A stretch of DNA of 64,000 bases. Source: Clostridiales bacterium (lineage in GTDB: Bacteria > Bacillota > Clostridia > Saccharofermentanales > Saccharofermentanaceae). The notes beneath the pieces were generated by a model. That model saw only the letters and a program-made list of their open reading frames with translations. It had not been told where the DNA came from and did no database searches. The position numbers and the translations under genes were made by a program. Positions 1 to 49,106 of this stretch are shown piece after piece. Position 1 is the stretch's first letter, and every line of letters begins with the position of its first letter. The stretch is taken from contig JAFRQR010000025.1 in assembly GCA_017428545.1 (NCBI GenBank), positions 62,001 through 126,000 on the forward strand, given 5' to 3'.

Positions 1-1040
1 TTCAGCATAGTGTAGGAAGGTTTCACGGAATTATCCAGACGGAGGAATCCGCTCGGAGCCTTCAGCCACGCGCCGTCTCTATAGTCCCAGGTCGTGATCG
101 CTTTTACCAGCGGATGGGAGAACAGGATGCGATACATCTCTTCGATCTCTTTTGCCTGTCTTTCCTCACCTTCCGGTGTCGTCGGCCATTCATCGACCTG
201 CCAGTCGTTGAGGTCTTCGATATACGCCGGCATGATCTCTCCGGAGATCAGGGTATTCTCCGTAAAGTGAATGGGAAGTCCGAATCTTTCGAAACGCTCG
301 AGCACTTCTTCGAGTTTCTCCCTTCCCCAGAAGCCCTGATGCTGGTGAGACTGAATACCGATCGCACTGATCGGGGCCCCGGCATCTAAGCACTCCTCGA
401 TAAGTTCTGCATATTTCTCGGAAGTATTAAAGTCGTTCAAAAGAAGGACCGCATCCGGATTTTGGGCATGGGCTTCATCGAAAACCGCCTTCACAAGCGG
501 TACTCTTCCGTATTCATTACAGATCCTGGTGACCGCGTTATCGTACTTGTCAAAGATCGGCATGATGACGACTTCGTTAATGACATCCCACATATCGATC
601 ACGCCTTTAAAACCGGAAACTTCACGGTCTATTCTCTCGAGCTGCTTTTTCAGGATCGTCTTATTGTCATACTTCATGAGCCAGTCGGCGCAGACAGTAT
701 GCCAGCAGAGCGGATGGCCCTTGACCTTGACGTTCTTTTCTTTGAGGTACTTGGCGACCTGCATGAGTTTTTCCGTATCCGGTTTTCCTTCCTCGGGCTC
801 GAAACGTCCCCAGTAGAACGGAAGTGTCGCGTAGTTAAATACCGCGAGCCACTTGTCGATCGCATCCTGAAGCTCCGTCGCTCCCATCGTTACATAGGGA
901 AGAAAATCAAACGCGCCGCAGCCGAAAAGGAACTCATGGTTCGTCTGGCTGACACGGATCTCTTTGTTGGCAAGTGCTTTTCCCTCATTATCCGTGAAAA
1001 GCACTTTCTTACTGACTTTTCTATGCGAAATATCCATCAT
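1..1040 (-). CDS. Endo-1,4-beta-xylanase-like, glycoside hydrolase family 10 (3' end outside window)
   Basis: About 346 residues are visible; the C-terminus lies beyond base 1. I translated the minus strand and checked that the frame stays open. GH10 hallmarks appear in order: KGHPLCWHT (near residue 106), WDVINE (acid/base Glu near 155), LLLNDFNT, GIQSHQH, and HFTEN (nucleophile Glu near 261). There is no signal peptide, so it probably acts in the cytoplasm on imported xylo-oligosaccharides, as known intracellular GH10 enzymes do. The start at 1040 (or the adjacent ATG at 1037) follows AGGAG, and that site overlaps the TAA stop of the upstream dehydrogenase gene, so the two are probably translationally coupled. 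The exact substrate is inference. Two copies of the dispersed 10-mer lie in the first 25 codons. Confidence 0.88.
   Translation of the reverse strand, partial: MMDISHRKVSKKVLFTDNEGKALANKEIRVSQTNHEFLFGCGAFDFLPYVTMGATELQDAIDKWLAVFNYATLPFYWGRFEPEEGKPDTEKLMQVAKYLKEKNVKVKGHPLCWHTVCADWLMKYDNKTILKKQLERIDREVSGFKGVIDMWDVINEVVIMPIFDKYDNAVTRICNEYGRVPLVKAVFDEAHAQNPDAVLLLNDFNTSEKYAELIEECLDAGAPISAIGIQSHQHQGFWGREKLEEVLERFERFGLPIHFTENTLISGEIMPAYIEDLNDWQVDEWPTTPEGEERQAKEIEEMYRILFSHPLVKAITTWDYRDGAWLKAPSGFLRLDNSVKPSYTML
972..1006. repeat. Inverted pair of the dispersed 10-mer inside the GH10 gene
   Basis: AAGTGCTTTT (972-981) and AAAAGCACTT (997-1006) form a perfect inverted repeat with 10-bp arms and a 15-nt loop. 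It lies within coding sequence near the 5' end of the xylanase-like gene, where the arms encode K-V-L-F and K-A-L. Confidence 0.9.
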
Positions 1041-36213: not shown

Positions 36214-36278
36214 CATGTCTGTTCGTTTTGCCGAATTACCTGCAGAACGTTTTATCATTCGAGGAGAAAGCCGTTTAT

Positions 36279-39062
36279 ATGTCTTTTGGATCAATAATGT
36301 ACCAGCTGTTTCTGTCGCCGCTGACCCTTATTTTCGAAGCGGTGTACAGTATTGCATTTCAGTTTTTAAGGAGTTCGGGAGCCGCGATCATTCCGTTGAG
36401 CCTGGTCGTCAACCTCCTGCTTCTCCCCTTTTATAACCGCGCAGATGCGATCCAGGAAGAAGAAAGAAAGCGTCAGGAAAAAATGGCGCCGTTTGTCGAG
36501 CACATCAAAAAAGCCTTTAAGGGCGACGAGCGTTTCATGATGCTGCAGACCTTCTACCGTGAGAATAATTACAAGCCGATCTATTCCGTTCGAAGCTCGA
36601 TCGCTCTTGTTCTCGAGGTCCCTTTCTTTATCGCCGCTTACAACTTCCTGTCTAAGCTTCCGGACCTTCAGGGCGCGAAATACCTTTGCTTCAACGATCT
36701 TTCGAAGCCGGATGCCCTGATCACCATCGGCGGCGTTGCCATCAACATCCTTCCGGTCCTCATGACCCTGATCAACGTCATTTCCAGTGAGATCTACACC
36801 AAGGGACTTAAGTTCAAAGATAAGATCACCCTTCACGGTATGGCCCTGATCTTCCTGGTGCTCCTTTATAATTCTCCGTCCGGTCTTGTTTTGTACTGGA
36901 CATTAAACAATGTATTCTCACTTCTGAAAAATGTCGTTAACGGTAGCAAGAACAAGCGCCGCACCGCAGGCATCCTCTTTGCCGCCGCAGGCCTTGCCGT
37001 TATTGTTTACGGATTCTTCTTCTATCACGGGATCCAGTCCTACCGCCTCGGCGTAATTGCTTTCGGCGTTCTTCTTCTGATCCCGATGGTGGTAGCCCTG
37101 ATCCCTGCCCCCAAGGCAAAAGCACTTGCCTCCGAAACCGCGGAGAAAAAACCGGATCACCGTCTCTTCTTCGGCGCCGGTCTTTTCCTGACACTTCTGA
37201 TCGGCGGACTCATCCCTTCTGCCGTTATCAAGTCTTCGGTCACCGAATTTGTACTGACCTCGGATATCCATTCTCCGAACCGTTATGTCATCTATTCGCT
37301 TCTTACTGCGGCCGGTTTCTTCCTTGTCTGGAGCGGACTTTTCTATTACCTGGCCAAACCGAAGGCAAAGCGTATCTTCACCGGCGTTCTTTGGTTCTGC
37401 GCCATCACGGGTACCGCGAACTACATGGTATTCGGCCAGAACAGTAACTCCCTGACCACTGACCTTCGATTCGATGTCGCACTCGATCTTGCGGTAAATA
37501 AGCAGATCCTCGATCTTCTCATGATCGCCGCCATCGGTGTCTTGCTCTTCGTGATCTTCAAAAAGAAAGATTCCATCATCCGCTTCATCTCCCCGATCCT
37601 TCTGATCGCGGTCGGCGCGATGACGGCCTTTAATATGTATTCCATTCAGGACGCAATGCCGAATATCCGCCGTGTCATTGCCGAGAGTTCCACGGAACGC
37701 CCGGTCATGACTTTCAGTAAGGACGGACAGAATGTTGTCGTCTTTATGATCGACCGTGCAGTGGCTTCTTATGTACCTTATCTGTTCCAGGAAAACCCGA
37801 CACTCGAACAGCAGTTTTCCGGATTTACCTGGTATCCGAATACACTTTCCTTCGGAACGAGGACCCTGGTCGGCGCCCCGGCGCTTTTCGGCGGGTATGA
37901 CTACATGCCTTCGAACACCAATAAAAGAAACGATATCTCCCTGAAGGAAAAGCACAATGAATCCCTTAAGGTCATGCCGATCCTGTTCTCGGAAGCCGGG
38001 TACGACGTTACCGTCATGGATCCGCCGTATGCGGGATACAGCCTGATCCCGGATCTTTCGATCTATGACGATCATCCGGAGATCAAGACCTATAACACCG
38101 AGTTCGGCCAGTTCCGTGATGCATCGGATATTGCAGGCAACATGAAGTCCACCTGGAAGAGAAACTTCTTCTGCTACAGTATCATGAAAGTCTTCCCGCT
38201 GGTCGCCCAGCCGGCCGTATACTCGACGGGTATCTACTTTAAGCCGGGTACTTCCAGTACCGCTCTGATCCAGGGCGGCGCCATCGACCGTTACGACGTT
38301 CCGGATGCGCTTTATGATTCGTTCATGAACTCCTATGAAGTACTTCGCGCACTCCCGTCGATCACCAAAAGTGAAGAAAACGGCAAGAACACTTTCTTCA
38401 TGATGCAAAACAGCGCAACGCATAACATCATCCCGCTGCAGGAGCCGGATTACGAACCGGCATCCGTAGTCGAAAACGGCGAGTATGACAGGACGCACAC
38501 CGACCGTTTCACATATAACGGCGTCACGATGCATATGGATACGACCTATCAGATGGCTCATTACGAAAGTGACATGGCGGTTCTGATGAGGATCGGCGAC
38601 TGGATGGATGAGCTTCGCGCCCAGGGGGTCTATGATAACACCAGGATCATCATCGTTTCCGACCATGCCTGGGGACTCGGAAGTTTCGACGACCTTCTCT
38701 TCGGCGACGGCGATCCGGATACGCTCTATAACTCCGAAGATGCCATGGGCTATAACCCGGTGCTTTTCTATAAGGATTTTAATTCGACAGGTGATTTCAA
38801 CACAGACTATACCTTCATGACGAATGCCGATACACCGACACTGGCCATGCAGGGACTTATCGACAATCCGCTCAATCCGTATACCGGTAATCCGATCTTC
38901 CAGCCGGATGCGAAGGACGGCATCATGTACGTTCTTTACACGGACAACTGGTCTGCGGAATCCAACACCGGTAATACCTTCACCAATTCGATCTGGTATA
39001 CCGTTTCCAATAAGGATGTGCTGGACAAAAACAACTGGAAGAAAGAGGAGAATGAACCATGA
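36279..39062 (+). CDS. YidC/Oxa1-like domain fused to an LtaS/sulfatase-superfamily domain
   Basis: A 927-residue two-part membrane protein. Residues 1-225 read as a YidC/Oxa1 insertase domain: a first helix, SLVVNLLLLPFYNRAD, a charged loop, RSSIALVLEVPFF and the last pair ending SGLVLYWTLNN. The Arg that is essential in this helix of Bacillus YidC appears to be Asn (VVNLL). Five or six more helices follow (about 235-455). Residues 480-927 are an external alkaline-phosphatase-superfamily domain, as in LtaS or EptA: metal Asp in FMIDRA (near 489), candidate Thr nucleophile in FGTRTLVGAPAL, His in ATHNIIPLQ and Asp-His in SDHAWG (near 794). Start ATG 36279 follows AGGAG at a long spacing. The last bases overlap the next gene. 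Likely transfers a phospho- or phosphono-group to a surface polymer (inference). Confidence 0.82.
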   Translation: MSFGSIMYQLFLSPLTLIFEAVYSIAFQFLRSSGAAIIPLSLVVNLLLLPFYNRADAIQEEERKRQEKMAPFVEHIKKAFKGDERFMMLQTFYRENNYKPIYSVRSSIALVLEVPFFIAAYNFLSKLPDLQGAKYLCFNDLSKPDALITIGGVAINILPVLMTLINVISSEIYTKGLKFKDKITLHGMALIFLVLLYNSPSGLVLYWTLNNVFSLLKNVVNGSKNKRRTAGILFAAAGLAVIVYGFFFYHGIQSYRLGVIAFGVLLLIPMVVALIPAPKAKALASETAEKKPDHRLFFGAGLFLTLLIGGLIPSAVIKSSVTEFVLTSDIHSPNRYVIYSLLTAAGFFLVWSGLFYYLAKPKAKRIFTGVLWFCAITGTANYMVFGQNSNSLTTDLRFDVALDLAVNKQILDLLMIAAIGVLLFVIFKKKDSIIRFISPILLIAVGAMTAFNMYSIQDAMPNIRRVIAESSTERPVMTFSKDGQNVVVFMIDRAVASYVPYLFQENPTLEQQFSGFTWYPNTLSFGTRTLVGAPALFGGYDYMPSNTNKRNDISLKEKHNESLKVMPILFSEAGYDVTVMDPPYAGYSLIPDLSIYDDHPEIKTYNTEFGQFRDASDIAGNMKSTWKRNFFCYSIMKVFPLVAQPAVYSTGIYFKPGTSSTALIQGGAIDRYDVPDALYDSFMNSYEVLRALPSITKSEENGKNTFFMMQNSATHNIIPLQEPDYEPASVVENGEYDRTHTDRFTYNGVTMHMDTTYQMAHYESDMAVLMRIGDWMDELRAQGVYDNTRIIIVSDHAWGLGSFDDLLFGDGDPDTLYNSEDAMGYNPVLFYKDFNSTGDFNTDYTFMTNADTPTLAMQGLIDNPLNPYTGNPIFQPDAKDGIMYVLYTDNWSAESNTGNTFTNSIWYTVSNKDVLDKNNWKKEENEP

Positions 39063-40491: not shown

Positions 40492-41613
40492 TTACAGCGT
40501 GGCGATATACTCCATAAAGTTCTGCTTATTCTCAAGTGCTGTCGTCGTCGGACGGCCGAGGTCGTCACGGGCGCCGATACTGCACATGACTTCGATCAGG
40601 CACAGTTCGTTTAATCCCTTGGCAAGAGACAGTTCGCGGTCGAGTTCTTCGAAATCGGAAACGCGTACCGCATAAGGATATCCGCAGGCCTTGGCAACGC
40701 CGACCAGATCGACATCACCCATAACTGTGGGCATGCCGCCGACTGTCTCGTGCGCGCCGTTATTGATCACGATATGCACGAGGTTTTTCGGCTGGTTCGA
40801 TCCGAGAAGTGCCATAGAACCCATGTGCATCAGCACCGCGCCGTCACCGTCCACACACCAGATCTTCTGGTTCGGCTTATTGATCGCCACACCTAGTGCG
40901 ATCGAGGAGCTGTGACCCATGGAACCGACTGTCAGGAAATCGTACTTATGGCTCTGTCCGTTTGCCACACGCGTCTCGAAAAGCTCTCTGGACGCTTTAC
41001 CTGTAGTGGAGATGATCGGGTCTTCTTCACTGACGGCCACGATGTGCTGGATGATTTCTTCTCTGACCATCTTGTTATCGTTTTCATAAACGACCTTCTC
41101 ATCATAGGAGAGCGCGCCTTTTCTGATGACGAATGCGACGTCTTTGCCCTGTGCAAGGATCTTTCTGAAATCCTCCATCTTCGCTTCCACTTCTTCGTCC
41201 GTCGTCTCTTTTCCGATTGCGAAATTCGCAATATCCATATCGTCCAGAAGCTTGATCGTTACTTCTCCCTGATAGATGTGCTGCGGCTCGTCGTGGATGC
41301 CGGGCTCACCTCTCCATCCGATGATGAATACGGTCGGGATCGCGTATACTTTGTCATTTAAAAGGCTGGCCACCGGGTTGATGATATTGCCTTCTCCGCT
41401 GTTCTGCATATATACGACCGGGACCTTTCCCGTCGCAAGGTGGTATCCTGCCGCCAGAGCCGTGCAGTTACCTTCGTTTGCCGCGATGACGTGGTGATGA
41501 GCATCGATGCCGTAGGTATGCATCAGGTAATTGCAAAGTGCTTTTAGCTGGGAATCCGGAACACCGGTATAAAAATCGGATCCGATGATCTCTACAAGTT
41601 TTTCAACTTTCAT
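40492..41613 (-). CDS. aepY: Phosphonopyruvate decarboxylase
   Basis: The 373 residues are a thiamine-diphosphate enzyme of the Ppd family: N-terminal FYTGVPDSQLKALCNYL, ANEGNCTALAAGYH, and the ThDP motif GDGAVLMHMGS with INNGAHETVGG. It decarboxylates phosphonopyruvate to phosphonoacetaldehyde, which makes phosphonate synthesis irreversible. ATG 41613 follows AGGAGAG. It is last in the minus-strand AEP operon; an exact dispersed 10-mer (41536) is read as L-K-A-L. Confidence 0.95.
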   Translation of the reverse strand: MKVEKLVEIIGSDFYTGVPDSQLKALCNYLMHTYGIDAHHHVIAANEGNCTALAAGYHLATGKVPVVYMQNSGEGNIINPVASLLNDKVYAIPTVFIIGWRGEPGIHDEPQHIYQGEVTIKLLDDMDIANFAIGKETTDEEVEAKMEDFRKILAQGKDVAFVIRKGALSYDEKVVYENDNKMVREEIIQHIVAVSEEDPIISTTGKASRELFETRVANGQSHKYDFLTVGSMGHSSSIALGVAINKPNQKIWCVDGDGAVLMHMGSMALLGSNQPKNLVHIVINNGAHETVGGMPTVMGDVDLVGVAKACGYPYAVRVSDFEELDRELSLAKGLNELCLIEVMCSIGARDDLGRPTTTALENKQNFMEYIATL

Positions 41614-41698
41614 TTTCGTCTCTCCTATTCTTTCGGTCGCCGCCGCGCCCGTTCTTCTATCATTCTTTGCCATGGCGCATCTCGGCGCCGGGCGCGTC

Positions 41699-42994
41699 TC
41701 AGATCTCGTCGATCAGCGTGATGATGTTCTTGATGCTCATCAGGCGGTCATCAACTTCTTTAGCTCTGTGATACTTCAGGATATCTTCTGCCGTCTGCTG
41801 CATCGCCGGGAACGCAGATCTCGTGAGCTGGTTGGCATAGATAACGATGTTGACGCCGTGAGCGGACAGTTCTTCTTCCGTGATGACATTAAAGGATGTC
41901 GGAACAACGACGATCGGTGTCTTGGCATCAACGGCACGGAACTTGTCACAGAACTCCAGGATCTCTGCAGGATCTTTCTTTCTGCTGTGGATCATGATGC
42001 CGTCAGCGCCTGCTTTTACAAAGGCAAAAGCGCGCTCGAGCGCATCTTCCATACCCTGCTCGAGGATGAGGCTTTCGATACGGGCGATGATCATGAAATC
42101 ATCTGTAAGCTGTGCCTTCTTACCTGCGGCGATCTTCTCGGAGAATTCCTCGATCGTTGCCTGCGTCTGCTTGACTTCGGTACCGAAAAGAGAGTTCTTC
42201 TTAAGGCCCTTCTTATCTTCGATAATGACGGCGGAAACGCCCATTCTCTCGAGAGAACGGACCGTGTAAACGAAGTGCTCGGTAAGTCCGCCGGTATCAC
42301 CATCAAAGATGATCGGCTTTGTGGTAACTTCCGTTATATCCTCGATCGTTCTGAAACGGGAAGTCATATCGACAAGCTCAATGTCCGGCTTACCCTTTGC
42401 GGTACTGTCGCAAAGAGAGCTGATCCACATTGCGTCGAACTGGTCAAGTTTACCTTCGTGCTCGACGACGGTCTTTTCAACGATCAGGCCGGTAAGACCG
42501 CTATGGGCTTCCATGGCTTTAACGATAGGTGTCATTTCGATGAGCTGGCGAAGTCTCTTTCTTCTATATTCCGGCATCGCAAGTTTCTCACGAAGCTGCA
42601 GGTCGATCTTTCTGACCTTCTCATTAAATGTATAAGGAACATCCACAAGCTGTCCGCCATACTCAGAAAGCAGCTCCTCCACATGATCCCTGATCGTCTT
42701 TTCCGGACCCTCCTTCCAGTTATCGCCGTGAACGACATAGTCCGGATGGATCAGTGCGATGACGTCATCGTACTGCATCTCTTCCTGAAGGACGACCTGA
42801 TCGACGCCCGGGATCGTGCGATAAAGGCGCATGCGCTCATCCTGCGAAATTGTAGGGAATTTGTTATAACGGATCAAAACTCTGTCGGAAAGACATCCGA
42901 TGATGACTTTACCGAGTTTTTTCGCTTCGTTGATGATGTTCAGATGTCCGTCATGGATCACGTCTGTGCAAAAGCAAGTGTAAGCTGTTTTCAT
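41699..42994 (-). CDS. pepM: Cytidylyltransferase domain fused to PEP mutase (Fom1-like architecture)
   Basis: 431 residues. Residues 1-135 are a CTP-transferase-like fold with TDVIHDGHLNI (HxGH site) and DYVVHGDNW. Residues 140-431 are phosphoenolpyruvate mutase, with FDGDTGG and the diagnostic EDKKGLKKNS motif (EDKX5NS), ARIESLI, and PTSFNVITEEEL. PepM forms the C-P bond of phosphonopyruvate. The same order is known from fosfomycin enzyme Fom1, where the N-domain cytidylylates hydroxyethylphosphonate. ATG 42994 follows AAGGAG. The gap to the aminotransferase gene holds an exact dispersed 10-mer. Confidence 0.94.
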   Translation of the reverse strand: MKTAYTCFCTDVIHDGHLNIINEAKKLGKVIIGCLSDRVLIRYNKFPTISQDERMRLYRTIPGVDQVVLQEEMQYDDVIALIHPDYVVHGDNWKEGPEKTIRDHVEELLSEYGGQLVDVPYTFNEKVRKIDLQLREKLAMPEYRRKRLRQLIEMTPIVKAMEAHSGLTGLIVEKTVVEHEGKLDQFDAMWISSLCDSTAKGKPDIELVDMTSRFRTIEDITEVTTKPIIFDGDTGGLTEHFVYTVRSLERMGVSAVIIEDKKGLKKNSLFGTEVKQTQATIEEFSEKIAAGKKAQLTDDFMIIARIESLILEQGMEDALERAFAFVKAGADGIMIHSRKKDPAEILEFCDKFRAVDAKTPIVVVPTSFNVITEEELSAHGVNIVIYANQLTRSAFPAMQQTAEDILKYHRAKEVDDRLMSIKNIITLIDEI

Positions 42995-43042
42995 GATGAT
43001 TCTCCTTACCTGATTCGATTTCAAAAGCACTTGTCGTGCGGC

Positions 43043-44173
43043 TTACTTGTACTGTACCGGGATTGCTACGCCTGATGTTTCAAGGGCTTCACGGAATACT
43101 TTGAAGAAGGCTTCAATATCCGGTTCGTCGATCGCGCCGAGAGCGCATAGACGGAAAGTATTCGTGGTAGAGATCTTACCGGGATAGATGGTGAAGCCTC
43201 TTTCATAGCAGTAATCATGTACTTTCTCGAAGCTGAAGTTCGGATCGTCCGGATAGATCGCAGAAGATACAAGACCGGCTCTCCATTCCGGCTTGATGAC
43301 CTGGCGGAAGCCGAGCTCATCCAGTCCCTTATTGATGGCATTAAAGACTCTTGTGTGGCGCGCCCACTTCGCCTCTTCACCTTCTGCCCAGTACTCTTTC
43401 AGCGCCTGAAGTGTCGCGTAGATCGTCTGTACCGGCGGAGTAAAATGCATCTCCCCTGTCTTTTCAAAGCAGTCATACTGCAGGAAAAGATTGCAGTAAT
43501 AGCTTCTTTTCGGGTAGGAAGCGGACTTTTCGATGATCGCTCTGTTTCCGATGACAAAGGAAAGACCGGTCATCGCCATCAGACCTTTTTGAGCGGAAGC
43601 CATGCAGAAATCGATGTTATCCTTCTCGATATCGATCGGGCGCATCGCGTATGTACTTGTGGTATCCACGGTAAATACGGCATCATACTTATGTACGAGA
43701 GCACCGATCTCACGGATCGGATTAAGAATACCCGTACCGGTCTCGTTATGCGTCGTGTGAACAAGCGCGATATCCTGGTTATTCTTCAGCGTTTCCTCAA
43801 CATCAGCAAGGTCCGGACGCTGATCGACCGGGAACTTCAGCTCGATATAAGGAATGCCGTAACCCTCACAGATCTCGACGGCGCGGGAAGAATATGCGCC
43901 GTTATTGATGACCAGGACCTTCTTTCCTTCCGGAAGAAGGGAGTTGATGCAAACGTCGATGTTGATCGTTCCCGACCCGCAGAAAAGCACTGAGGTGTAT
44001 TTCGTAAGATCACCGTGAACGACCTTGACGAGATCTTCACGAAGGCCCTTCATGAGACCTGCAAATTCTTTTTCTCTCGGGCAGATATCCGGTACGACCT
44101 GTGCATACTTGACGGTATCCGTCGTTGTCGACGGGCCCGGATTTAAAAGGATGTTTCTTTTTACTGGTTCCAT
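43043..44173 (-). CDS. phnW: 2-aminoethylphosphonate aminotransferase
   Basis: The 376-residue PLP enzyme of the class V type shows LLNPGPSTTT, FCGSGTINID, HNETGTG, VDTTSTYAM and the PLP lysine in ASAQKGLMAMTG. PhnW-type enzymes interconvert AEP and phosphonoacetaldehyde. Beside PepM and Ppd the direction is biosynthetic: phosphonoacetaldehyde to AEP. The start is 15 bases after the upstream gene. It is sometimes called AEPT or AepZ in biosynthetic clusters. Confidence 0.93.
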   Translation of the reverse strand: MEPVKRNILLNPGPSTTTDTVKYAQVVPDICPREKEFAGLMKGLREDLVKVVHGDLTKYTSVLFCGSGTINIDVCINSLLPEGKKVLVINNGAYSSRAVEICEGYGIPYIELKFPVDQRPDLADVEETLKNNQDIALVHTTHNETGTGILNPIREIGALVHKYDAVFTVDTTSTYAMRPIDIEKDNIDFCMASAQKGLMAMTGLSFVIGNRAIIEKSASYPKRSYYCNLFLQYDCFEKTGEMHFTPPVQTIYATLQALKEYWAEGEEAKWARHTRVFNAINKGLDELGFRQVIKPEWRAGLVSSAIYPDDPNFSFEKVHDYCYERGFTIYPGKISTTNTFRLCALGAIDEPDIEAFFKVFREALETSGVAIPVQYK

Positions 44174-44188
44174 TTTCTTTCTCCTTCT

Positions 44189-45079
44189 TTATACATCGTA
44201 AGCCGGGTCGATCTCTTTGAGCTCGCGGAAAGTATCGATCTCTACGATATCTTCTTCCTTGCAGGCACGGACCTCGACCTTATAGTTCTTTTTCTTATAA
44301 ACAAGCGGGACCTGTTCCCAGTAGCGCTCTTTGCCGCCCGGGCCGGTATAGACGGAAGGAACATCGTCAACAAGTTTCTTTCCGTCTTCCTCGTTCCAGT
44401 AGGAAATACCTACCATCTGCCAGCAGTTCTCACCGCCGACCTTCTCCTCGAGGATCACGCCGTCTTTTACTTCGAAGCACCAGTCATCCGTTCTGTCCTT
44501 AGGGATCGCAAGAAAATCGGAAGTATAGTGATACTTCGTGATGATATCCGGATTGGAAAGCAGAAGGTCTGCCTCGAAAACATAGGAATTCGAAAGCAGG
44601 TGTCTTGCCAGCATGGCACTGCTGATATTATTCGCTTCGTTAAACATCGGATTATCCAGAAAATGCAGCATCGGATACTTATAAAGCAACTGGTCGAACT
44701 GTTCACCGAGATAGCCTCGTACGATGTAGATCTCCTCAATACCGGCAGCAAGGCATGCGTCCAAAAGTGTGTCAATGATGCGTTTGCCGTGAACACGTAC
44801 CAGGGGCTTCGGGGTATTTAACGTGATCGGTACCATTCTCGACCCGAAACCCGCGGCAATGAACACTGCGCGCTTGGCCCGGTACGGCTCTAAAGCCTCG
44901 ATGCCTTTGGCAGTTATCTTACCGGATTCGACCATTCCGTCGGTGTCGAGTTCTCTGTATACTTTATTGATCGTACCCAGAGAATAGCCGGTGATCTTCT
45001 CCAGGTCGCGCTGGGAAAGTGCTTCTTCCGAAGAAGCAAGAGCGACCAGGATATCAAAATGTTTTCTTTGCAGACTCAT
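44189..45079 (-). CDS. Winged-helix plus LicC/PntC-like nucleotidyltransferase
   Basis: 296 residues. The first 70 form a winged helix (SQRDLEKITGYSLGTINKVYREL), and residues 72-296 are a LicC-type nucleotidyltransferase (AAGFGSRMVPITLNTPKPLVRV). In phosphonate clusters the matching enzyme PntC makes CMP-AEP from CTP and AEP; LicC makes CDP-choline. With pepM, aepY and phnW downstream, CMP-AEP is the best guess. The HTH is an unusual addition found in some LicC/PntC-type proteins. First gene of the operon, weak ribosome site (GGGTGAAC), promoter at 45134-45161. Confidence 0.85.
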   Translation of the reverse strand: MSLQRKHFDILVALASSEEALSQRDLEKITGYSLGTINKVYRELDTDGMVESGKITAKGIEALEPYRAKRAVFIAAGFGSRMVPITLNTPKPLVRVHGKRIIDTLLDACLAAGIEEIYIVRGYLGEQFDQLLYKYPMLHFLDNPMFNEANNISSAMLARHLLSNSYVFEADLLLSNPDIITKYHYTSDFLAIPKDRTDDWCFEVKDGVILEEKVGGENCWQMVGISYWNEEDGKKLVDDVPSVYTGPGGKERYWEQVPLVYKKKNYKVEVRACKEEDIVEIDTFRELKEIDPAYDV

Positions 45080-45273: not shown

Positions 45274-46293
45274 TTACGGATCAGGCTGATCCTGTCCGTT
45301 ATCCTTATTCCCGGAAAACGGATCCGGAAGACCCGGAGTATACGATGTCGAAGCGCCTGATGTAAACGGATCCGGAAGACCGGAAGACGAATACGGAGAC
45401 GGCATCGGATCCTGCGGAACATATGACGGCTGTTCATTCGGGACCTGATTCTGAGGTGCAATGGGCTGCGGTGCATGCGCCGGAACCGTGATCGGCGCCG
45501 TAAATTCATCCTTCTTTTTCTTCTTATGGATAAATACGGCAAGTATGGCTCCACCGACGACAAGTGCGGCGAATACCACGATCAAGACGATCAGAAGTTT
45601 CTTATTGAAAGATGCGCCTTTCGTATTTTTCTTCTTTGAATTCTTCGAAACAGCCTCTTCTTCCTCATCTTCGTCTTCATCCGAAGGCATCGGAAGTTCA
45701 AATTCACAGTGGATCGGCTCGTTCATCTTGGATAGATCCCACTCGAGAAGAGATCCTTTGGAAGAGGTGGCATTCTCATCGATCGGCTTGATCGGAAGCT
45801 CCAGGGTAAACTTCATGTAGCCCCCGTATGTGCTGAGATCCCCCAGAGACGATCCTTCTTCGGATACCATCTTATCGACAGATTCCGTATCCCAGTCGAT
45901 CGTATATACGCCGTCATCAAAACTGAACGTAAACGATTCGAAGCCTTCTCCCAAAGCCCGGACTTCAGTCTCTACCTGATCGATCGGTATGCCGCCTTTA
46001 GATGCGATAAAACCATTATAAGAACTCGATTCACTGCTGCCGTCGCCGGTATAGTCTCTCGTGGACCAGCCTTTACTCTCGAACTCTTTCTTTTCTTCTG
46101 CCCAGCCGGTATCGCCGTTTCCGTCAGTAAGGTCAGACAAAGCATAAAGATAAGTCAGATTTACGGTTCCGTCCGAATTTACCGTACAGCCGACCGAATA
46201 TCGGACACATGCGGTAAGAGCTAAGAGCATCGAAAGTACAAGAAATACAGAAATGATCTTCTTTACTGAAAGCAGAGTATCTTTTCTCCCCAT
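45274..46293 (-). CDS. LppM-like lipoprotein with C-terminal helix and proline-rich tail
   Basis: 339 residues: lipoprotein signal with LLALTAC (Cys near 29), an LppM/DUF3153-like external domain (to about 195), an acidic and Lys-rich stretch, a membrane helix (about 222-246) and a Pro/Ser/Gln-rich tail. It is a paralogue of 46392-47363: both contain a TSSKG-x-x-LEWDL segment followed by (I/E)(H/Y)CEF. The start follows GGAGGGG. The two paralogues are separated by a terminator and are transcribed in the same direction. Function unknown. Confidence 0.82.
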   Translation of the reverse strand: MGRKDTLLSVKKIISVFLVLSMLLALTACVRYSVGCTVNSDGTVNLTYLYALSDLTDGNGDTGWAEEKKEFESKGWSTRDYTGDGSSESSSYNGFIASKGGIPIDQVETEVRALGEGFESFTFSFDDGVYTIDWDTESVDKMVSEEGSSLGDLSTYGGYMKFTLELPIKPIDENATSSKGSLLEWDLSKMNEPIHCEFELPMPSDEDEDEEEEAVSKNSKKKNTKGASFNKKLLIVLIVVFAALVVGGAILAVFIHKKKKKDEFTAPITVPAHAPQPIAPQNQVPNEQPSYVPQDPMPSPYSSSGLPDPFTSGASTSYTPGLPDPFSGNKDNGQDQPDP

Positions 46294-46334
46294 TTGACCC
46301 CTCCTTTACTGTTGCCGTTTCTTTTTCCTATTTT

Positions 46335-46366
46335 GAAAAAAGGGGCCGCCTTATCGGCAGCCCCCT
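46335..46366 (-). terminator. Terminator after the PQAP-repeat lipoprotein
   Basis: On the minus strand GGGGCTGCC pairs with GGCGGCCCC, followed by TTTTTTC. Confidence 0.9.
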
Positions 46367-46391
46367 CTTAATCCTTTTTTAATCCGTACGA

Positions 46392-47363
46392 TCAAACTGT
46401 CGGATCAACCGGTGTGTTGTCAGCCGGAGCTGCAGGAGCTTCAGGAGCTGCCGGAGCAACCGGAGCCTGAGGTACTACCGGTGCTACAGGAGCCTGCGGA
46501 ACTACAGGTGCCTGCTGCGGTACGAACTGTGCCGGAGCCTGCGGAGCTACAGGAGCCTGAGGTACTACCGGTGCCTGCGGAACTACAGGTGCCTGCGGGA
46601 AACCTGCCGGCTGTGCAAATCCCTGATCAACAGGAGCCTGCGGGAATGTCGGAGTAACCGGAGCAGGAGCAGGAGCATTCTTCTTTTTCTTCATGATGAT
46701 AACGATAACAGCGATGATAGCTGCAACTACGATAACACCAACGATGATTCCGATGATCAGTCCCCACGGAATACTGCTGGACTTAGAAAGATCGAATTCG
46801 CAATAGATCGGATCTTCGATTTCAAAAAGATCCCACTCGAGCTTGTTGCCTTTCGAGCTTGTAGAGTTGTCATCGATCGGCTTGCCCGGAAGCTCGAGAA
46901 CGAACTTCATGTAGCCGTCATACTGTTCAAGTGTATCAGCGGAGATACCGGAGCTGGAAGCTTCGGAAGTTGAACTGGTAGCATCCCACTCGAGAGTATA
47001 AACACCGTCATCTTCTTCCAGAGTGAAGCCGTCAATGCCGAAAGCCTCTGTAAATACATCCTCGAACTCTTCAAGATCGATATCGGAAACAGTAACAGTA
47101 AAACCTACAAAACCGTCCTCGTCATACTCATCGATCTCGTAATCATATTCGAAATCCTCAAGACCTGCTTCAAGCTCATCTCTTGACTCCTCAATACCTG
47201 TAGCATAATCTTCTATGATCGCATACAGGAAGGATACATCAGCTGTACCGTCGGTATTGATCGTTGCCGTGTAGGATGAACGCAGGCATCCTGTGAAGCA
47301 TACGATGATAGCGAATACGAGCATGATAGCAGAGAACTTCTTTAAACTTGTTCTTTTTTCCAT
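46392..47363 (-). CDS. LppM-like lipoprotein with PQAPV repeat tail
   Basis: 323 residues: lipoprotein signal with VCFTGC (Cys near 23), LppM-like external domain (to about 190), a membrane helix (about 195-220) and a tail built of P-Q-A-P-V repeats (about eight). The tail would be cytoplasmic and disordered if the helix crosses the membrane. ATG 47363 follows GGAGGG; a longer frame begins at 47444. A paralogue of the next gene downstream. The repeats at DNA level lie at about 46400-46660. Confidence 0.82.
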   Translation of the reverse strand: MEKRTSLKKFSAIMLVFAIIVCFTGCLRSSYTATINTDGTADVSFLYAIIEDYATGIEESRDELEAGLEDFEYDYEIDEYDEDGFVGFTVTVSDIDLEEFEDVFTEAFGIDGFTLEEDDGVYTLEWDATSSTSEASSSGISADTLEQYDGYMKFVLELPGKPIDDNSTSSKGNKLEWDLFEIEDPIYCEFDLSKSSSIPWGLIIGIIVGVIVVAAIIAVIVIIMKKKKNAPAPAPVTPTFPQAPVDQGFAQPAGFPQAPVVPQAPVVPQAPVAPQAPAQFVPQQAPVVPQAPVAPVVPQAPVAPAAPEAPAAPADNTPVDPTV

Positions 47364-47513
47364 ATTGCCCTCCATTGCGCTTAGCGCATTCCTTAATTGT
47401 AAATACATTATGATTTTATAATGAAAGTGCGAAAATATCAACAACCCAGCATCTCGGAGTTAGCATTTGTTTTTCCGCAGATATCGGAGAATACGGAGTA
47501 CTATTTCGGAATA

Positions 47514-47676: not shown

Positions 47677-49053
47677 CTACGAAGGATCGTTCACGATACC
47701 GATAAACAGCGGAAGCCCCGTCGCACTCACGATCTCAAAAACAAACGGGCGGTCCACGGTAAAGTAGAAATCGTATGCAGGCTCTCCCGCACCGATCATT
47801 TCAATTGTCAGTGAAGCTGCTTTGCAGCCTTCCTCATCGATCATCACCCGGGTGTCCTGAATGATCGAGGAAATATACAGCTGCTGATCCTTCGCGTTCA
47901 GCGGACTGAAATCCGCTTTTGCCGGATCAAAAGCATCCGTCATTCCCAGTTCCGCAAGTTTGTCCTGAAGCTGGAGATCAGATGAAATGTCGAATTTCGG
48001 AACGGTCAGATAGATCCCCGCATAGTCTTCGGTCTTTTCCCAGGTATTCGAACCAAGAAAAGAAAGGGTCTCTTCGTCCTTCAATAGTTCTTCCGGAGTC
48101 ATCCCTTCTTCCGGCAGGATAAAGCGCATGGTTCCGTTTTCGATCGTATCCAGGGCTACGCAGGAAAAGTGGTCTCCATAATAGTTTCTATAGACGCTGT
48201 CCGTCTGCATGAATTCACATGTCACATCGCCGGACGCCGCATGAAACGTATCGTTTTTGTTCAGTTCCTTTTGAAAAGCACTTGTCCACTTCCCGTTGTA
48301 ATTGACGATCGAAGCCAGGGTCAGATACATATCCGAATCAAAGCCCAGGCTCGGGGTAAAGCTGTCCAGAAGACCATCCGTCTCTTTTGACACCCACTTG
48401 CGGAGTGCTTCATTATACTCATCCGAAGCCGGATCCCCGGAAAAAGAAGAAGCATAATACTCCTGCGCCAGAATATCCAAAGCCGTGTGGTCATAGGTGT
48501 TTTTTGAATTCAGCCAAAGGGAGTCTGCCAGTATAAGCTTGGCTACGCCGTCATCCATATAGTTCGCCTGAAAGATCGACTTGGCATGAGAACGCATCGT
48601 CAGAAGATCAGGAAGGTGCACGATATTCAGGATCTGCTGACGGGAGCTTCCGTCCGTGATCTCCGTCGTCATGCCGAGCATCATATAAAGACCTAAAGGA
48701 GAAAAAACGAGGTTCTCCCCTTTTTGATCCGAGAAAATGACAGGAACGATATCTCTAAGATATTCATCGTACCCTGACGTATATCCCTCCGGCTGGTCTT
48801 TTAATTCCTGAAGCGCAGCGTTATAAGCCTCATAGTTATCTTTTTCACCATTTTGAAGCATGACTTCAGGATGGGAAGGCATGTCCGGATAAACCGGCGA
48901 AGCGATCTCATACGCGTCAGTTTCATCAGACTCAGATCCGTTCTTTTTGTTCTTGGAATTACAGGAAGTTAAGCCAAGGGAAAGAACTCCGACGATAAGA
49001 ATGCAGACCGTAATCGAGATATGTTTCTTTCTATTCCGGATATCTGTTTTCAT
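47677..49053 (-). CDS. Serpin (serine protease inhibitor) lipoprotein
   Basis: 458 residues: a lipoprotein signal (LSLGLTSC, Cys near 25), a linker, and a serpin domain from about 85. Serpin marks: NLVFSPLGLYMMLGM, SIVNYNGKW, the hinge IDEEGCKAAS (near 405) and the C-terminal DRPFVFEIVSATGLPLFIG. Counting 15 residues from the hinge Gly puts P1-P1' around Ala-Gly-Glu, so a small P1 residue and an elastase-like target are plausible. The hinge has Cys where Thr is usual. Inhibitory ability is therefore likely but not certain. Serpins are uncommon in bacteria and are found in some gut species. Start 49053 follows GGAAG. Confidence 0.9.
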   Translation of the reverse strand: MKTDIRNRKKHISITVCILIVGVLSLGLTSCNSKNKKNGSESDETDAYEIASPVYPDMPSHPEVMLQNGEKDNYEAYNAALQELKDQPEGYTSGYDEYLRDIVPVIFSDQKGENLVFSPLGLYMMLGMTTEITDGSSRQQILNIVHLPDLLTMRSHAKSIFQANYMDDGVAKLILADSLWLNSKNTYDHTALDILAQEYYASSFSGDPASDEYNEALRKWVSKETDGLLDSFTPSLGFDSDMYLTLASIVNYNGKWTSAFQKELNKNDTFHAASGDVTCEFMQTDSVYRNYYGDHFSCVALDTIENGTMRFILPEEGMTPEELLKDEETLSFLGSNTWEKTEDYAGIYLTVPKFDISSDLQLQDKLAELGMTDAFDPAKADFSPLNAKDQQLYISSIIQDTRVMIDEEGCKAASLTIEMIGAGEPAYDFYFTVDRPFVFEIVSATGLPLFIGIVNDPS

Positions 49054-49106
49054 TGCCATATCTTCCATCAATACGAAAGCAAAAACGCTTCTTACAACCC
49101 ATCTAC

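Follow-up and report, generated by a model that had tools for sequence, protein, structure and literature searches.

What is an insertase fold doing at the head of a surface-modifying enzyme? The question is raised by a gene in a 64,000-nucleotide stretch of DNA from a Clostridiales bacterium (assembly GCA_017428545.1, contig JAFRQR010000025.1, positions 62,001 to 126,000 of the forward strand), the whole of which we call the window. The gene encodes a multi-domain protein in which a YidC core is followed by a seven-helix membrane bundle and an alkaline-phosphatase domain of the EptA/LtaS type (Table 1). The fusion family to which it belongs is real and widespread, and apparently undescribed, as the fusion was not found reported in the open-access literature searched. 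Taking its architecture, its pairing with a neighboring PF04464 gene and its surface-decoration context together, we are fairly confident of the overall picture. We give about an even chance to a more specific reading, in which the two genes form a module that decorates a surface glycan or lipid with phospho- or phosphono-head groups: the groove of the YidC domain would let a polar lipid through or hold the partner, and the outer domain would complete the transfer.

An earlier note, made from the letters alone, had read a YidC fold, a membrane bundle and an LtaS/sulfatase-type domain in this order, and profile searches and structure prediction confirm it. PF02096 (60KD_IMP) matches residues 34-220 with E=2.4e-22 (80 bits, cut-off 35) and PF00884 (Sulfatase) residues 484-802 with E=1.4e-8, while an AlphaFold2 model of the whole protein, based on an alignment of 84 relatives, reaches a predicted local distance difference test score (pLDDT) of 91 and a predicted template-modeling score (pTM) of 0.87. 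As the sulfatase half dominates the Foldseek search with the whole-chain model, YidC is not among the top 50 matches listed; residues 1-228 were therefore folded separately. The resulting model (pLDDT 87) contains the five-helix YidC core and matches B. halodurans YidC (3wo6/3wo7, E 1.6e-7 to 2.7e-7, TMq 0.68-0.71) and likewise E. coli YidC. The cytoplasmic coiled-coil hairpin between transmembrane helices TM1 and TM2 is present as well, with helices 33-79 and 82-95. In the catalytic half, the Asp, Thr, His and Asp-His positions that the note had picked out are D492, T529, H715, D795 and H796, each found in 84 of 84 relatives; they would form the metal and nucleophile set expected of an active alkaline-phosphatase-superfamily enzyme, with Thr529 as the nucleophile. 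Foldseek relates this half to PbgA/YejM, MCR-1, LtaS/LtaP and phosphonate monoester hydrolases. The fusion scores far below the EptA equivalog (17 bits, cut-off 660), the LtaS equivalog gave no match to it in the NCBIfam profile search, and a short-stretch search of the PDB with the nucleophile motif found no match. The K/R-rich loops of the bundle, KPKAKR and KKKD, fit the cytoplasmic side, so that on a positive-inside reading the catalytic domain would face outside. A chimeric assembly artefact was ruled out, since dozens of independent contigs carry the fusion and the source genome holds six paralogues of it.

The earlier note had called for a search for the same fusion, and a scan of genome contigs found at least 141 relatives of the window protein. 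They occur in several phyla, in Clostridia, Coriobacteriia and Treponema (Lachnospiraceae, including Butyrivibrio, Oscillospiraceae, Peptoniphilaceae, Eggerthellaceae/Coriobacteriaceae and Treponema). A single genome has up to seven of them, and 114 near-full-length fusion genes were collected. The source genome, for which all counts are based on profile searches, has seven PF02096 genes, namely one canonical YidC of 353 residues (L001) and six fusions; a separate canonical YidC is retained in nearly every relative examined. The fusion-type YidC domain was found in 8 of 245 genomes sampled across the class, always in frames of about 860-950 residues, and the sulfatase-type half follows the same pattern in 148 class genomes, with strong matches only in open reading frames (ORFs) of this size. 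As no unfused version of either half was found at strong score in these two sets, the halves travel only together within the genomes searched. A second family searched for unfused halves yielded one weak frame of 543 residues (G391), near a contig start. A tree built from 61 fused and 18 stand-alone YidC domains places the fusions on one side of a long branch with a support of 100; those from Spirochaetota and Actinomycetota are placed among the Bacillota, which fits horizontal transfer. In plasmid and phage collections, the matches were all weak and confined to the N-terminal YidC part, so that no link to mobile elements emerged there.

What sets these YidC domains apart is their groove. YidC/Oxa1 proteins are viewed as insertases whose groove charge is strictly conserved, and the earlier note had proposed Asn in place of the Arg of Bacillus YidC. 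Asn45 of the window fusion indeed meets the groove Arg in an ungapped alignment. The two outcomes that would have refuted the note, a model lacking the five-helix core and an Asn aligned elsewhere, were both checked for and not found. Across 101 fusions, this position is occupied by Asn in 88, Ser in 10, Gln in two and Gly in one, as compared to Arg in 18 of 18 stand-alone YidCs; the positive charge that TM1 contributes to the groove of YidC/Oxa1/Alb3 is absent from all 101. With this defining feature lost, the fusion is not adequately labeled as YidC alone, although the window protein passes the NCBIfam model yidC_oxa1_cterm (TIGR03592; 90.2 vs 84.3 bits) and would therefore be given that name, masking the fusion. 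The loss of Arg alone is no proof of lost insertase function, since E. coli YidC R366N is functional if position 517 is aromatic or polar, from which its authors concluded that the groove requires hydration, not charge (PMC8920935). The equivalent residue of the fusions is an invariant Trp207, so that the groove may plausibly be polar and hydrated even in the absence of Arg. Besides N45, which is mostly kept, invariant or nearly invariant positions include S41, Y52, R-A-D 54-56, the hairpin stretch FKGDERFMMLQ and PFF 115-117, and further D145, N156, M162-T163, N166, S169, Y173, S199-P200, Y206-W207, N210-N211 and K217-N218. Conservation is highest in the YidC part, with a median pairwise identity among fusions of 58% (catalytic part 46%, bundle 27%), for which reason the role of a mere anchor is not expected; fused and stand-alone cores share about 20%. 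Such strictly kept new residues in the groove and cytoplasmic hairpin, within the most conserved part of the protein, strongly suggest that the groove has been reused. To this extent the interpretation offered in the earlier note, a reuse of the hydrophilic groove, perhaps to help move a substrate or the enzyme's own helices, is partly supported; the family-wide spread, the PF04464 partner and the head-group context were not part of it.

The second gene of the proposed module encodes a TagF-like transferase of family PF04464, whose start overlaps the stop of the fusion by 4 nt (ATGA). A PF04464-type gene lies in the same unbroken, same-strand run in at least 94 of 121 fusions, mostly overlapping the fusion or separated from it by under 50 nt, and in either order. 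These partners begin with a near-invariant YIDPGTG(S/G)MLF, after which come a single hydrophobic helix and a basic stretch. All four PF04464 genes and all four YIDPGTG motif copies of the source genome belong to fusion partners. Of 41 related genomes, 24 contain the motif; a fusion was detected in 23 of these, and the fusion-free outer relatives all lack the motif. As the genomes are phylogenetically clustered, this co-occurrence is suggestive only. Residue 45 shows no signal of co-variation with the partner motif beyond one case (S45 with YIDPATGS, on C4), because Ser and Gln are rare at this position and the motif is nearly invariant. The case in point is the most divergent copy of the source genome (L085, 8233-12116), which has Ser at the Arg/Asn position and a partner with YIDPATGS rather than YIDPGTGS. 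Another locus of this genome (L084, 6464-14807, on C16) has the tandem order PF04464, fusion, PF04464, fusion, with head-group genes not adjacent.

The surroundings of the pair point to the chemistry it may serve. In the window, the opposite strand carries what would be a compact operon for 2-aminoethylphosphonate (AEP) biosynthesis and activation (40492-45079), an arrangement that shows synteny within the genus. Elsewhere, the pair is accompanied by choline kinase and nucleotidyltransferase fusions with BCCT or EamA transporters (L039, L050; L065 and L071 by similarity), by nucleotidyltransferases fused to a CobD-like decarboxylase (L038, L080; L077 by similarity), or by phosphoenolpyruvate (PEP) mutase modules comprising PEP mutase, phosphonopyruvate decarboxylase and a cytidylyltransferase (L031, L032, L044, L073, L079); in L079, the module lies between the fusion and partner genes, all on one strand. 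In raw counts, nucleotidyltransferases are the commonest Pfam among 119 near neighbors at distant loci (8), with choline kinase at 4 and PEP mutase at 3. Of 59 relatives, 23 have both the fusion and phosphonopyruvate decarboxylase, one has the enzyme only, three the fusion only and 32 neither, again with phylogenetic clustering. Pathways of the lic and Pnt type attach P-choline or AEP to surfaces (PMC6697681). Judged by their domains, the neighbors would repeatedly make head groups activated by cytidine diphosphate (CDP) or monophosphate (CMP), with choline-P, ethanolamine-P, AEP and their kin as candidates.

Table 1. Features of the fusion gene, its partner and the adjacent phosphonate genes (window positions)
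Feature	Position	Strand	Basis and remarks
AGGAG, ribosome-binding-site-like	36262..36266	+	12 nt upstream of ATG; read off the sequence
YidC-EptA-like fusion gene	36279..39062	+	single unbroken frame, 927 residues; ATG 36279, stop 39060-39062
YidC/Oxa1 five-helix domain, residues 1-228	36279..36962	+	PF02096; AlphaFold2 model; Foldseek to 3wo6/3wo7
Helices of the YidC domain: amphipathic 3-30; TM1 + cytoplasmic hairpin 33-95; TM2 100-125; TM3 157-173; TM4 179-196; TM5 201-222			AlphaFold2 model
Codon for Asn45, aligned to the conserved groove Arg (R366 in E. coli, R73 in S. mutans YidC2)	36411..36413	+	phmmer alignment
Seven-helix membrane bundle, residues 229-470	36963..37688	+	secondary structure of the model
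Alkaline-phosphatase-superfamily (sulfatase/LtaS/EptA-like) domain, residues 471-890; D492, T529, H715, D795-H796	37689..38948	+	PF00884, Foldseek, conservation
Partner: TagF-like PF04464 transferase, N-terminal YIDPGTGSMLF transmembrane segment	39059..40414	+	E=3.2e-15, 56.4 vs cut-off 22.1 bits
Phosphonopyruvate decarboxylase	40492..41673	-	TIGR03297, 460 bits vs cut-off 312.5
PEP mutase with fused N-terminal TagD-like cytidylyltransferase domain	41699..43030	-	profile matches
Class V aminotransferase, probable AEP transaminase	43043..44173	-	PF00266; AEP role from context
Winged-helix + nucleotidyltransferase (LicC/PntC-like), probable cytidine triphosphate:AEP cytidylyltransferase	44189..45079	-	PF12802 + PF00483; function inferred from PMC6697681

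In L073 (5700-7709) and L079 (12577-14592), nucleotidyltransferase, cytidylyltransferase and PEP mutase are combined in a triple fusion, which in L073 adjoins genes for an iron-dependent alcohol dehydrogenase (Fe-ADH) and phosphonopyruvate decarboxylase, a context that suggests a hydroxyethylphosphonate head group. A further apparent triple fusion of 774 residues in the source genome (L140, 730-3054, on C25) joins nucleotidyltransferase, cytidylyltransferase-like and Fe-ADH-like parts and is perhaps another head-group activation enzyme, its domains other than the TIGR01518 match being assigned by eye. Beside the pair in L038 (8104-9948) and L080 (9590-11404), a nucleotidyltransferase fused to a CobD/HisC-like pyridoxal-phosphate enzyme may make CDP-ethanolamine or a similar compound from a phospho-amino acid. 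In L050 (1461-8646) and L058 (14090-21504), lic-type genes stand beside the pair together with a BCCT transporter, an MTTB-family methyltransferase and a corrinoid-protein-like gene. On the minus strand of the window itself, two neighboring genes with LppM-domain similarity (45274-47444) are found, and a serpin gene (47677-49071; PF00079, E=4.7e-59), here in a bacterial genome.

How could the parts work together? In the scenario that we propose, a CDP- or CMP-activated head group would be made in the cytosol, as the gene content of 14 distant loci, and of the window's own clade throughout, suggests. Fixed to the membrane by its N-out YIDPGTG helix, the PF04464 partner would load it onto a lipid carrier at the inner face, and the charged lipid head would then cross to the outer leaflet via the polar groove of a YidC domain that has lost its Arg. 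Finally, the outer EptA/LtaS-like domain would take over the head group on Thr529 at its metal site and hand it to a surface acceptor. The parts with their arrangement, conservation and pairing are observed, whereas we infer donor, acceptor, direction and groove cargo. For the passage through the groove there is an analogy: insertases of the YidC superfamily, E. coli YidC included, are reported to scramble lipids in vitro, by way of the same hydrophilic channel as insertion (PMC10491306). On this analogy, we hold the passage to be possible, with a chance somewhat short of even. Slightly more tentative is the general proposition that an insertase fold has become a translocator devoted to lipids or head groups linked to them, covalently joined to the outer-leaflet transferase that uses this cargo and paired with an inner-leaflet loader, as a so far undescribed, ATP-independent way of exporting phospho- and phosphono-decorations in gut Bacillota, Coriobacteriia and spirochaetes.

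Several points weigh against this scenario. An adjacent PF04464 gene is missing for 27 of 121 fusions, where some contigs are cut and two copies of the source genome are truly without one. The donors of functionally characterized PF04464 enzymes are CDP-glycerol or CDP-ribitol, not CDP-choline or CMP-AEP, and relatives of EptA and LtaS use ordinary lipids already in the outer leaflet, so that no flippase is needed. Genes for head groups are, by raw counts, found at only a minority of the distant loci, and the phosphonate neighbors of the window may be accounted for by synteny within the genus alone. The chief rival explanation, which we nevertheless regard as unlikely, retains the partner and gives the groove another occupant: it would be a permanent docking or insertion seat for the YIDPGTG tail and anchor helix, joining the TagF-like enzyme in the cytosol to the transferase outside in one trans-membrane assembly line. 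The tail is short, acidic and N-out like the classic substrates of YidC, and the motif accompanies the fusion, being absent from the fusion-free outer relatives and, in the source genome, confined to partners. The fusions without a neighboring partner count against such a seat as well, as does the sharing of a single partner by up to four fusions at one locus (L037), and with invariant residues on both sides there is no co-variation signal to support it.

Two further explanations were weighed. In one, the protein is an LtaS-like polymerase or a lipid phosphotransferase, and its YidC domain only an internal chaperone or anchor for its own helices. YidC assists the folding of polytopic proteins, the YidC part is N-terminal and thus first out of the ribosome, and the source genome also has sulfatase-family genes free of YidC. 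However, the same genome holds an ordinary YidC, the groove chemistry is specific to the fusions, and the YidC part exceeds the enzyme in conservation, unlike a passive helper, which makes this explanation improbable. In the other, the fusion is a true extra insertase with an appended enzyme, a specialized paralogue of the YidC2 type. It could point to the TIGR03592 score, the retained cytoplasmic hairpin and the invariant Trp207 at the position that renders the Arg dispensable in E. coli YidC (PMC8920935). Yet a canonical YidC is kept alongside in nearly every relative examined, the fused domains form their own clade on a long branch at about 20% identity to canonical YidC, and they are never found unfused in the class genomes searched; we consider this the least probable explanation.

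The proposed head-group module would have consequences beyond the locus. Here is a large natural family, spread over several phyla, whose members have lost the groove charge and carry the fold joined to a surface-modifying enzyme, which suggests that an insertase fold was recruited for building or decorating the cell surface; a categorically new transport step is possible. Its neutral grooves are a natural experiment on the purpose of the YidC arginine, and through them lipid movement by insertase grooves becomes testable in nature. The pair is also a candidate for a missing step, the one that brings choline-P, ethanolamine-P or phosphonates to the surface of bacteria without LicD.

How does the module compare to known systems? 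With YidC/Oxa1/Alb3 (PF02096, TIGR03592), the fusion shares the five-helix core, the amphipathic N-terminal helix, the cytoplasmic hairpin and a polar groove; it departs from them in the replaced groove Arg, in its new invariant residues, in occurring only fused and as a separate clade, and in having a normal YidC at its side. EptA/MCR, LtaS/LtaP and PbgA/YejM (PF00884), among the best Foldseek matches, likewise have a membrane bundle followed by an alkaline-phosphatase fold with a Thr nucleophile and an Asp/Asp-His metal site, but the fusion is only about 11-15% identical to them, has seven bundle helices instead of five and a YidC domain in front, and stays below every equivalog cut-off. The partner resembles TagF/TarL-type enzymes in exceeding the Pfam cut-off of PF04464 and keeping the family motifs RPHPQ and SDFSG. 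It differs in its YIDPGTG transmembrane segment and in showing no match to the TarF/TarL equivalog; the source genome has no TagD above cut-off, the two sub-threshold matches both lying in head-group-type fusion proteins. With the lic and Pnt pathways (LicA, LicC, PntC, PEP mutase), finally, the loci have in common the cytidylyltransferase, kinase or phosphonate genes that adjoin the pair. The usual transferase of lic pathways is LicD, which the profile search did not find in the source genome, and the fusion and its PF04464 partner may act in its place.
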